The position numbers were made by a program, and so were the translations under genes. DNA of 7,563 nt from a bacterium (GTDB lineage Bacteria; Thermosulfidibacterota; Thermosulfidibacteria; Thermosulfidibacterales; JALWSI01), in contig JALWSI010000070.1 of NCBI GenBank assembly GCA_027080315.1, positions 1-7,563 of the forward strand, given 5' to 3'. The notes below the pieces were generated by a model. That model was not told where the DNA came from and searched no databases. It was given only the letters and a program-made list of their open reading frames with translations. Positions 569-4,130 of the stretch are shown in pieces (within the stretch, counting starts at the first letter, position 1; every line of letters starts with the position of its first letter).

Positions 569-590
<22 letters not shown>

Positions 591-967
591 GGAAGCTTCT
601 CGTCAAAGGTCAATAGCTTACACCCATAGGCTTCGCTTTTAACCCAGATAAGGCAATCCAGAAGACTAAGTCCAGAACCTTGTTCAAAACGGTTCAAGGC
701 CTCAAGCAATAGCCTTTTGTCTTTATTCTCCACACCTTTGTAAAGAATTAGCTCCCTTAAAGCTGTAGCCACCTCTTTGGGGGGAACTGAATAAACCTTG
801 GTCAGCACATAGAAGGTTTCAAGTATCACCTCAGCCGGTATTATTGCCTTCTGCCTTCCATCTCTGAGTTCCGAGAAGAATGGAGAGATCTTTCGGTACT
901 GCTCCTGGTTATCCGCCAAAAAGTAACGGAGGATCACATTGGTATCAGGGATCTTCTTTGTACTCAT
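569..967 (-). CDS. vapC: PIN-domain ribonuclease toxin, VapC family
   Basis: This is a 132-residue single-domain PIN protein, the usual size for VapC toxins, which are Mg-dependent RNases that cut tRNA or rRNA and are silenced by the partner antitoxin. The acidic catalytic positions of the family are visible: Asp8 in the opening DTN motif, Glu46/Glu50 in PAEVILE, Asp104 in LLDCLIW, and Asp122 in TFDEKL. The ATG at 967 lies inside the 3' end of vapB (23-base overlap), so the two genes are translationally coupled. After TFDEKL the family core is essentially complete. The last seven residues, PGAPERT, and the stop codon are almost entirely antisense to the 3' end of tRNA-Arg, with the TGA formed by the complement of the T loop. 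The toxin looks catalytically intact. The family assignment is secure, but its RNA target cannot be read from the sequence. Confidence 0.92.
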
Positions 968-1187
968 GGGTCACCTTTTCCCAGGCTATCTCCCTCTCCT
1001 CTTTAAAAGAGATAAGGCCCTTGGCATACCTCTTAAAGACCCCACCAAGATCCCTCACCGGCTCCAAAACTATCTTTTCATTTTCAATTCTGAACCTCAC
1101 CACATCGCTACCTAGCATATCCCTCATCTTCTTAGGAATGGTGACCTGTCCTTTAGATGTTATCTTGGCCATAACCTCCATTTTCAT
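945..1187 (-). CDS. vapB: AbrB/SpoVT-type antitoxin and autorepressor, VapB family
   Basis: This is a protein of up to 80 residues with an N-terminal swapped-hairpin AbrB/SpoVT DNA-binding domain. The hallmark stretch KITSKGQVTIPKKMRDMLG occupies residues 8-26. The C-terminal half (GGVFKRYAKGLISFKEEREIAWEKV) is the kind of segment that wraps the PIN toxin and blocks its active site in characterised VapBC complexes. Three ATG codons compete as the start: 1187, 1181 and 1172. GGAGG is 8 bases before the ATG at 1181, and a second purine block (GGAGGAGG) is 10 bases before the ATG at 1187, so either could be used. The gene is first in the vapBC operon and overlaps vapC by 23 bases. A strong promoter and a palindrome lie directly upstream, consistent with autorepression by VapB or VapBC. 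Confidence 0.92.
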   Translation of the reverse strand: MKMEVMAKITSKGQVTIPKKMRDMLGSDVVRFRIENEKIVLEPVRDLGGVFKRYAKGLISFKEEREIAWEKVTHEYKEDP

Positions 1188-1855: not shown

Positions 1856-1884
1856 TTGACCTGTGAGGCAAGAATGGGTAGGTA
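1856..1884 (+). promoter_or_regulatory. weak candidate promoter for the panB leader
   Basis: TTGACC (1856-1861) is a good -35 box, preceded by the AT-rich tract AATTTTTTAAATTT (1829-1842). A 17-base spacer leads to TAGGTA (1879-1884), which matches the -10 consensus poorly; TAAGAA (1883-1888) is an alternative with a spacer that is too long. Some promoter must lie upstream of the leader terminator if that terminator is an attenuator, and this is the best site I see. Confidence 0.3.
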
Positions 1885-1889: not shown

Positions 1890-1913
1890 CACCGCTTGGA
1901 TCTTGCGGATGCG

Positions 1914-1967
1914 GGACCGAGACGGGCTATTTGTGGGGTTAGAGTATTCAAAGGCCTCCCTCGGTCC
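1914..1967 (+). promoter_or_regulatory. possible antiterminator pairing in the panB leader
   Basis: GGACCGAG (1914-1921) is perfectly complementary, over 8 bases, to CTCGGTCC (1960-1967). The latter contains the whole loop and the last stem base on the 5' side of the panB terminator. The two pairings share the same bases, so they could be mutually exclusive, as in transcription attenuators, or form a loop pseudoknot. A small competing hairpin, CCG-AGA-CGG (1917-1925), could hide the upstream arm. The complementarity is seen directly; a regulatory role is inference. Confidence 0.45.
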
Positions 1968-1981
1968 GGGAGGCCTTTTTT
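1950..1981 (+). terminator. Rho-independent terminator (attenuator candidate) directly before panB
   Basis: AAGGCCTCCC (1951-1960) pairs perfectly with GGGAGGCCTT (1968-1977), with one more A-T pair (1950/1978) and loop TCGGTCC. A run of six T (1976-1981) follows. The T tract is on the plus strand only. No plus-strand gene precedes it for more than 1.3 kb, so the transcript it ends is either the panB leader itself or a small non-coding RNA. It stops 12 bases before the panB start codon. Confidence 0.88.
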
Positions 1982-1993
1982 ATTGGGGGAGAG

Positions 1994-2794
1994 ATGAGCA
2001 GAGTTACGGTTTTGAAGCTGAAAGAGATGAAAGCGGCTAACGAGAAGATAGCCATGCTAACAGCCTACGACTATCCCTTCGCCAGCATAGTGGACGAGGC
2101 AGGTATTGAGATCATCTTAGTGGGCGACTCCTTAGGCATGGTGGTGCTGGGTTACGATTCCACCATTCCAGTCACCTTAGACGACACAATCCGCCACACG
2201 CAGGCTGTGGTTAGAGGCACCAAGAACGCCATGGTGGTGGCAGACATGCCCTTCTTAACCTACCAGGTGAGCCCCTCCCAGGCCCTTATGAACGCGGGCA
2301 GGCTCATTCAGGAAGGCGGAGCCCAGGCGGTGAAGCTGGAAGGAGGGCGAGAGGTGGCCAATACGGTTCACACCATTGTGTCTGCAGGAATACCTGTGAT
2401 GGGACACCTCGGCCTCACTCCACAGTCTGTGCATCAACTCGGTGGTTACAAGGTACAGGGCAGAACAGAGGAGGCTGCTAAGAGACTGAAAGAGGACGCC
2501 CTTATCCTTCAGGAGGCAGGAGCCTTCTCCCTTGTACTTGAGGCTGTGCCTATGGAGCTGGCCAAGGAGGTGACAGAGGAACTTAACATCCCCACCATAG
2601 GCATAGGTGCAGGACCCCACTGCGACGGACAGGTGCTGGTGCTCCACGATCTTTTGGGAGTGTTTCAAAAGTTCACACCCAAGTTTGTGAAGAGGTACGC
2701 CGAACTGGGAAAGATGGCCAAGGAGGCCATTGAGGAGTACCGTAAAGATGTTAAAGAGGGCAAGTTTCCAACAGAAGAGCACAGCTACAGGTGA
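1994..2794 (+). CDS. panB: 3-methyl-2-oxobutanoate hydroxymethyltransferase (ketopantoate synthase)
   Basis: PanB transfers a hydroxymethyl group from 5,10-methylene-tetrahydrofolate to alpha-ketoisovalerate, the first committed step of pantothenate synthesis, in the cytoplasm. The 266-residue length is normal for this TIM-barrel family. Metal-binding and catalytic residues are in place: Asp45 in VGDSLG, Asp84 in VVADMPF, Glu116 in KLEGG, and the catalytic base Glu183 in VLEAVP. Other signature stretches are [10 protein letters not shown] (21-30), HLGLTPQSV (138-146) and TIGIGAGP (201-208). The ATG at 1994 follows the purine block GGGGGAGAG. panB opens the panBCD operon and meets panC at its stop codon. 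An intrinsic terminator just upstream suggests that entry into the operon is controlled by attenuation. Confidence 0.97.
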
Positions 2795-2799
2795 AAGCC

Positions 2800-3654
2800 A
2801 TGAAGTTGGTACCCACAATAGGCGAGATGAAAGCCCTAAGCTCCTCGTGGAGAAAAGATGGAGAGACTATAGGCTTTGTGCCCACCATGGGATACCTCCA
2901 CGAGGGCCATCTGAGCCTGGTTAGAGAGTCTGTTAAGCAGTGCTCAAAAACCGTGGTGAGTATCTTTGTAAACCCAACCCAGTTTGGCCCCGGTGAAGAC
3001 TTTGAACGGTACCCAAGGGACACCGAAAGGGATCTGGGTCTGCTTGAACCTTTGGGGGTGGACGCTGTCTTTATCCCTGAGGTGAAGGAGTTTTACCCAG
3101 AAGGATATCAAACCTACGTGGAGGTGACAGAAATCACCAACCGCCTCTGCGGTCTCTCGCGGCCAGGACACTTCAGGGGGGTCACCACGGTGTGCTGCAA
3201 GCTCTTCAACATCGTATCTCCCCATAAGGCGTTCTTCGGGAAGAAGGACTTTCAGCAGTTCACGGTTCTGAAGCGGATGGTTGATGACCTTGCCATGGAC
3301 TTAGAGATAGTCCCCATGCCCATAGTGAGAGAGCCCGATGGTTTGGCCATGAGTTCCCGTAACACCTATCTCTCTCCAAAGGAGAGAGAGGCGGCTTTAT
3401 GCCTTTCAAAGAGCCTCAAAGAGGCCCAGAGGCTCTTCAGCTCAGGGGAACGGGACGCAAATAAGATAAGAGAGGCGGTGAAAAAGATAATTGAGTCTGA
3501 GCCACTTGCAGAGATAGACTACGTATCTGTGTGTGATCCCTACTCTTTTGACGAGGTGGATAAGGTAGAGAGAGGAACCCTTGTGGCCCTGGCGGTTAAG
3601 ATTGGGCCCGCAAGGTTGATTGATAACACCCAGCTTGGAGTTGACGAGATCTGA
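2800..3654 (+). CDS. panC: pantothenate synthetase (pantoate--beta-alanine ligase)
   Basis: PanC joins pantoate and beta-alanine using ATP through a pantoyl-adenylate, giving pantothenate. It is a cytosolic member of the nucleotidyltransferase superfamily. From the ATG at 2800 it has 284 residues, the usual family length. The HxGH motif is HEGH (34-37) within [22 protein letters not shown] (56-62), FGKKDFQQ (146-153) and the KMSKS-like MSSRNTYLS (184-192) are all present. I prefer ATG 2800 because AGGTGA (2788-2793) is an ideal ribosome binding site six bases upstream. An alternative GTG at 2791 would overlap the panB stop by four bases and add MKA, but has no clear binding site. Either way the gene is translationally coupled to panB. 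Confidence 0.96.
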
Positions 3655-3665
3655 GGAGGAGACCC

Positions 3666-4055
3666 ATGAGGCGCAAAATGTTTCTTGCAAAGATACACCG
3701 TGCCACCGTAACAGAGGCAAATCTGAACTACGAGGGGAGTATAACCATTGACTCTGCCCTGTTAGAGGCCAGCGGGATACTTCCCTGGGAGATGGTTGAT
3801 ATCTGGAACATCACCAACGGTGAGAGATTTCAAACATATGTGATTGCAGGGGAACCCAACTCAGGGGTGATCTGCCTAAACGGAGCCGCAGCCAGAAAGG
3901 TGTCAGTGGGAGACAAAGTGATCATCGCGGCATCTGCAGAGGTGGAGCACGAAGAGGCCCTTCAATGGCAACCCACTGTGGTAAAGGTTGACGATAACAA
4001 CAAGGTAGTGGAGGTCTCAAAGAAAGAGACCCCCTTCACCCTCTACGCAGCCTAA
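3666..4055 (+). CDS. panD: aspartate 1-decarboxylase proenzyme
   Basis: PanD decarboxylates L-aspartate to beta-alanine, the second substrate of PanC. It is made as an inactive chain that cuts itself before a serine, which becomes the pyruvoyl cofactor. The cleavage site Gly24-Ser25 is visible in YEGS, so the beta chain would be residues 1-24 and the alpha chain 25-129. The family's Lys9, Arg54 and Tyr58, implicated in substrate binding and catalysis, are all in their standard positions. So are the surrounding motifs (MFLAKIHRATVTEA, GERFQTYVI, NGAAARKVSVGDKVII). The ATG at 3666 follows GAGGAGGAG, which overlaps the panC stop codon. A second ATG at 3678 is in frame but is less well placed, and starting there would shift the standard residue numbering. 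Having panD last in the operon makes the pathway self-sufficient for beta-alanine. Confidence 0.97.
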   Translation: MRRKMFLAKIHRATVTEANLNYEGSITIDSALLEASGILPWEMVDIWNITNGERFQTYVIAGEPNSGVICLNGAAARKVSVGDKVIIAASAEVEHEEALQWQPTVVKVDDNNKVVEVSKKETPFTLYAA

Positions 4056-4070
4056 ATCCACCAAAGCAAA

Positions 4071-4097
4071 AAGGGGCCAACAAAAGTTGGCCCCCTT
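4071..4097. terminator. bidirectional terminator shared by panBCD and the atp operon
   Basis: GGGGCCAAC (4073-4081) pairs perfectly with GTTGGCCCC (4086-4094) around the loop AAAA. On the minus strand the stem is followed by TTTTTGCTTT, a good terminator tail for atpC. On the plus strand the tail (CTTCTAGTTTCTTTTA) is less uniform but T-rich and serves panD. It sits in the 75-base gap between the convergent panD and atpC stop codons. Confidence 0.88.
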
Positions 4098-4130
4098 CTA
4101 GTTTCTTTTAATCCGCTTTAACCCGCAAAC

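Follow-up and report, generated by a model that had tools for sequence, protein, structure and literature searches.

The panBCD locus and its leader

The window (the whole stretch of 7,563 nucleotides analysed here, G000:C70) is part of a 1.84 Mb assembly and contains the panBCD operon with a leader directly upstream of panB. The features of the leader and the operon are as follows.

1856–1884, plus strand: promoter-like site, TTGACC at 1856–1861, 17 nt, TAGGTA at 1879–1884
1892–1925, plus strand: pan hairpin, CCG CUUGG A UC(..)GA CCGAG A CGG, in which A1900 and A1922 are bulged
1914–1921, plus strand: GGACCGAG, contributing to the 3' strand of the pan hairpin and forming the 5' strand of the predicted antiterminator
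1924–1957, plus strand: interior pairs (GGGCU/GGCCU and UUUG/CAAA) of the predicted antiterminator, expected to sequester the 5' arm of the terminator; minimum-energy fold for transcripts ending at 1967–1972
1950–1981, plus strand: intrinsic terminator, 11-bp stem 1950–1960/1968–1978, 7-base loop, six T
1960–1967, plus strand: CTCGGTCC, the terminator loop and one stem base, partner of 1914–1921, resembling the pan 5' strand CUUGG(A)UC
1994–2794, plus strand: panB, ketopantoate hydroxymethyltransferase (PF02548, E 2.4e-125)
2791–3654, plus strand: panC, pantoate-beta-alanine ligase (PF02569, E 6.5e-110)
3666–4055, plus strand: panD, aspartate 1-decarboxylase (PF02261, E 1e-50)

The terminator, which reads AAAGGCCTCCC-TCGGTCC-GGGAGGCCTTT at positions 1950–1978 with the T run at 1976–1981, is the only terminator-like site in the interval 1700–2100, versus 0.3 expected. 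The sequence-only reading had described a terminator with an 11-bp stem and six T standing 12 bases before panB, with no plus-strand gene directly upstream, and both observations hold: 12 bases separate the end of the T run from the panB ATG at 1994, and the nearest upstream feature is a minus-strand fragment at 1381–1848. The feature, which that reading let begin at 1910, starts further upstream, the conserved hairpin beginning at 1892 and the promoter-like site lying at approximately 1856–1884. Matches to Phe_leader, STnc and other Rfam models in the window fall on the terminator hairpin, all of them below the respective cut-offs, and were rejected.

In the window, the promoter-like site is weak, agreeing with the consensus at seven out of 12 positions and being absent from the list of the consensus scan. 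A TTGAC[ACT] box with a -10-like hexamer precedes the hairpin by a similar distance in seven out of seven leaders from the order. Judging from this putative promoter, the leader transcript is expected to start just before the hairpin.

Several other features of the locus were observed. The minus-strand fragment at 1381–1848 encodes only the C-terminal part of a polysaccharide biosynthesis protein (PF02719, positions 200–292 of 293); the pan leader occupies the place of the N-terminal part, and the gene looks like a truncated remnant. A PIN-domain protein (569–967, minus strand) and an overlapping MazE/AbrB-type antitoxin (945–1187, minus strand) constitute a VapBC-like toxin–antitoxin pair, which adjoins tRNA-Arg(CCT) at 514–590. 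A strong GC-rich hairpin at 4064–4121, flanked by A and T runs and located between the convergent panD and ATP synthase genes, is probably a two-way terminator.

The leader hairpin and the pan motif

The pan motif, an RNA element unexplained since 2010, has been listed in Chloroflexi, Firmicutes, and Deltaproteobacteria, most pan RNAs being a tandem pair of hairpins, according to the main text of the source paper (Weinberg et al., 2010; PMC2864571). The corresponding Rfam model, RF01749, covers the tandem pair in 92 positions, and its gathering cut-off of 36.2 bits is set for the pair. The hairpin of the window scores 17.6 bits with this model, below the cut-off, and matches model positions 48–92, that is, the second (3') half only. 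The model does exceed the cut-off in three other genomes from this order, where it matches the homologous position (39.1 bits in G006, 37.4 in G007, and 36.5 in G001); in these alignments the first hairpin is poorly matched, and promoter-like sequence stands in its place. Given the 3'-half match together with these alignments, the leader of the window is, as far as sequence comparison goes, a single-hairpin form of the pan motif. Thus, the earlier guess that the leader might belong to this motif proved right, and running the Rfam model, as had been suggested, yielded the match but not a score above the cut-off.

The leader has in common with RF01749 a stem with two conserved bulged A, one on each side, the core GGAUC...GACCGAGAC, and the location before panB, panC, or panD operons, here with panBCD directly downstream. 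It differs in comprising a single hairpin where a tandem pair is usual, in scoring below the Rfam cut-off, and in the terminator that comes after it, the loop and 5' arm of which compete, by prediction, for the pan 3' strand. The panB leaders of the order have in common CCGCTTGGATC(..)GGGACCGAGACGG, followed by a terminator topped by CTCGGTCC, and this common block folds as one hairpin in which each side carries a bulged A. In none of the leaders of the order was a further pan core found, the tandem arrangement being a feature of most pan RNAs rather than strictly defining.

With a model of the hairpin alone (R1), the hairpin of the window scores 42.5 bits. The same pairing, including bulged A at positions corresponding to A1900 and A1922, is seen with covariation in 71 aligned matches. 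Over 70 distinct sequences, in an alignment that was fitted to the model, 96.4% of the stem pairs are standard, 35 cells show two-sided changes, and the covariation score is reached by none of 500 shuffles. The bulged A are conserved, and a U–G wobble in the stem is nearly invariant. Variants of the hairpin were also seen: a form with an altered 5' strand, CUGCUCUGAGCC...GGACCGAGACAG, is present in two panB leaders (L093 and L057; Bacillales record, G059), and one hairpin (L191, G175:C11:30118–30187) has a long extra stretch in the apical loop, being 70 nt long versus about 34.

Within the order, R1 matches seven out of nine genomes, these nine being the whole sample of the phylum and including G004, whose contig starts within the leader, and G008, which is 73% complete. 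Among 386 bacterial genomes, R1 finds matches in 58 (E 0.01), 13 training sequences from the same set matching by construction, whereas RF01749 exceeds its cut-off in eight; hence, the hairpin-only model detects the element in many genomes that lie below the cut-off of the tandem model. The matches are nearly always located before pantothenate genes, and the named records with the element include Armatimonadetes (L118) and Tectomicrobia (L107), beyond the three taxa originally listed. The few matches without pan genes nearby (L196, L200, L202, L204, L205) have weak scores and are probably due to chance, and one match (L197) is cut off where its contig ends. Only about five out of 87 leaders contain the core twice within 130 nt, although a degenerate copy could be missed.

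Complementarity of the hairpin and the terminator

As the sequence-only reading had noticed, the segment GGACCGAG at 1914–1921 is perfectly complementary to CTCGGTCC at 1960–1967. The two segments are separated by 38 bases. When the interval 1887–1949 is shuffled with dinucleotides preserved, 62 out of 20,000 shuffles contain an 8-mer that pairs exactly with the loop, and thus a chance origin of this single match is unlikely, though still possible; the convincing part is the comparison across genomes.

An intrinsic terminator is found within 330 nt downstream of 58 out of 87 distinct pan hairpins, compared with a rate of 0.047 per 330 nt in the other parts of these loci, a background that is low as it takes in coding sequence. 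No terminator was found within 330 nt for the remaining 29 hairpins; these leaders may work differently, or the finder may miss their terminators. The mean energy of the duplex formed by the pan 3' strand and the 5' arm and loop of its own terminator is -14.8 kcal/mol. It is -12.8 (sd 0.33) when the pan terminators are swapped, none of 200 swaps being as low as the own pairing, -8.4 with unrelated terminators, and -8.0 when the pan 5' strand is taken instead of the 3' strand. With one genome per family (25 genomes), 144 out of 20,000 permutations are as good as the own pairing.

The partners vary together, the matching segment shifting along the 3' strand by group: UCUCGGU is found with ACCGAGA, CCUUCCG with CGGAAGG, CCCCGUCC with GGACGGGG, and CCUUCUGUC with GACAGAGGG; co-varying pairs can also be given as GGACGGGG with CCCCGTCC and GACAGAGGG with CCTTCTGTC. 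Covariation of the 1914–1921/1960–1967 helix, which the sequence-only reading had called for among relatives, is therefore seen in more distant genomes but not on both sides of the helix inside the order, where only one-sided (G–U) changes occur; no two-sided change was found among the order leaders, since the pan hairpin constrains the pairing strand as well. This strand is kept in five out of six relatives from the order, where the antiterminator pairing extends over the terminator 5' arm with about 13–15 pairs and energies of -22 to -28 kcal/mol; there, the pan 5' strand is nearly duplicated by the terminator 5' arm and loop. In G006, the alternative pairing is weak and limited to 6 bp (-9.1). 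Taken together, the sequence comparisons demonstrate the hairpin, its family, the terminator, and a common strand whose complementarity is kept across genomes.

Folding of the leader was predicted as a series of equilibrium minimum-energy structures for transcript prefixes, which is not a kinetic description. In transcripts up to 1964, the best predicted fold has the pan hairpin closed. In transcripts ending at 1967–1972, the antiterminator is best, pairing 1914–1921 with 1960–1967 and spanning 1914–1967, with the enclosed pairs occupying the terminator 5' arm; its predicted advantage is 4.3 kcal/mol at 1967 and 6.3 kcal/mol at 1970. From 1974–1976 onward, the pan hairpin together with the terminator is predicted to be best. 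This order of folding is the same in predictions at 60 and 70 °C. In G001, the antiterminator was never the predicted minimum in the folding series. Among 58 leaders, 76% have a predicted antiterminating intermediate that is favoured over the form with the pan hairpin closed by 1 kcal/mol or more, compared with 27% when unrelated terminators are used and 41% with swapped pan terminators. Hence, by prediction and comparison, the putative sensor and the expression platform are mutually exclusive, as is required of a riboswitch.

Proposed attenuation and the genes downstream of the hairpin

The single-hairpin pan RNA is probably a transcription attenuator of the panBCD operon, OFF when the hairpin is stabilized, as the pairing patterns and the energy predictions suggest. 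RNA polymerase would start just upstream of 1892, and the pan hairpin would fold immediately. The terminator loop CUCGGUCC (1960–1967), on emerging, could then displace the pan 5' strand from GGACCGAG (1914–1921), and the enclosed bases would tie up the terminator 5' arm, resulting in an antiterminator and read-through into panB. A regulator, be it a metabolite of the pantothenate/CoA pathway or a protein, would hold the pan hairpin closed and make GGACCGAG unavailable, so that the terminator would fold and transcription would stop. The hairpin-bound state would be OFF, as expected of end-product feedback. We infer the promoter position, the order of folding, and the direction of control. An attenuator with alternative pairing, as the sequence-only reading had proposed, remains the best interpretation, the strand being kept in five out of six relatives and the relation of hairpin and terminator recurring in many unrelated bacteria.

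In riboswitches of the TPP and lysine type, the sensor domain and the antiterminator have a common strand, and the terminator stands before the gene. The pan leader resembles such terminator-type OFF riboswitches in the strand shared by sensor and antiterminator and in the terminator just before a biosynthetic operon, but its sensor would be one small hairpin with a ligand that is only postulated, and the 5' strand of the sensor itself recurs as a copy in the 5' arm and loop of the terminator. In PyrR-type attenuation of the pyr operon, a small leader hairpin (the anti-antiterminator) controls the terminator in a protein-dependent manner. The pan leader is similar in that a small leader hairpin of a biosynthetic operon would control a terminator, while its sequence is unrelated and the protein partner is postulated.

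What stabilizes the hairpin can be considered in two ways. With a probability not far short of one half, the hairpin is a binding site for a protein, such as a repressor or a pathway enzyme (e.g., PanB), to which the terminator responds. A dimeric protein-binding motif has been proposed from the simple hairpin and the tandem arrangement (Weinberg et al., 2010; PMC2864571), and the hairpin of the window, being only about 34 nt long with two bulged A, is of a kind that suits a protein; a dimer site, however, is not required, given the rarity of a second core, and the presence of the element in very different bacteria would call for an equally widespread RNA-binding protein. A small-molecule aptamer for pantothenate, pantoate, beta-alanine, or a form of CoA, making the leader a riboswitch, is a substantial possibility, if one to be held with some reserve. 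The conserved bulged A, the nearly invariant U–G wobble, the predicted mutual exclusion with the terminator, the wide distribution, and a set of targets confined to the synthesis of pantothenate and CoA, among them coaX and a panE-like gene outside the window's genome, speak for it, against which the hairpin is very small, lacks a junction or a pseudoknot, and has had no ligand named in the literature found since its description in 2010, a 2022 review stating that a CoA riboswitch is not known (PMC9971707). The single-hairpin form and the wide distribution leave room for a small-molecule ligand. The more specific proposal, of a minimal riboswitch of about 34 nt for a compound of the pantothenate/CoA pathway, in which the terminator 5' arm and loop copy the aptamer 5' strand, is tentative and rather unlikely; if true, it would supply the CoA-type riboswitch that is reported to be missing (PMC9971707).

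Other readings concern the attenuator itself. The antiterminator of several leaders restores a pan-like helix, with the bulged A in place, and a regulator might bind this form (GGACCGAG-A-CGG paired to the near copy of the pan 5' strand) and turn panB ON; this is improbable, as the pan 5' strand (CCGCUUGGAUC) is far more conserved than the copy that the terminator carries, and an end product would not usually act as an activator. The strong hairpin and T run would equally be expected of a constitutive terminator, or of one serving an upstream gene, with the complementarity arising by chance, yet no plus-strand gene lies directly upstream, six relatives and many other bacteria have the same arrangement, and the complementarity exceeds the controls, making this explanation very unlikely. 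Least credible, to the point of being almost negligible, is a T-box or attenuation by a leader peptide: with its terminator part, the Phe_leader model matches the terminator at 25 bits (cut-off 55), but the match rests on that part, no Rfam T-box covariance model matches in the window, and the hairpin, a few bases after the expected transcript start, leaves no room for a ribosome site and a leader peptide.

Attenuation through the pan hairpin, the preferred reading, would add a terminator mechanism to an element whose motif is already described. In its main text, the source paper mentions terminators for crcB and pfl but not for pan (PMC2864571). One small hairpin with direct coupling to a terminator represents the system at its simplest, and the choice between ligand and protein is thereby testable by in vitro termination.

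The genes downstream of the hairpin are panB, panC, or panD, a Rossmann/DUF2520 (panE-like) gene, an S58 peptidase gene, or a type III pantothenate kinase gene followed by pan genes. In a Sphaerobacter record (L101:709–1601), the hairpin precedes the type III pantothenate kinase gene coaX, and thus the use of pantothenate, as well as its synthesis, may be under the control of the pan hairpin. In a Dehalococcoidia record (L079:122–1177), the hairpin is followed by a gene for an S58 peptidase, another gene resembling the panE-like ones, panD, and panB. Enzymes of the S58 type are able to liberate beta-alanine from peptides, and the peptidase is a possible new link to the pantothenate pathway.
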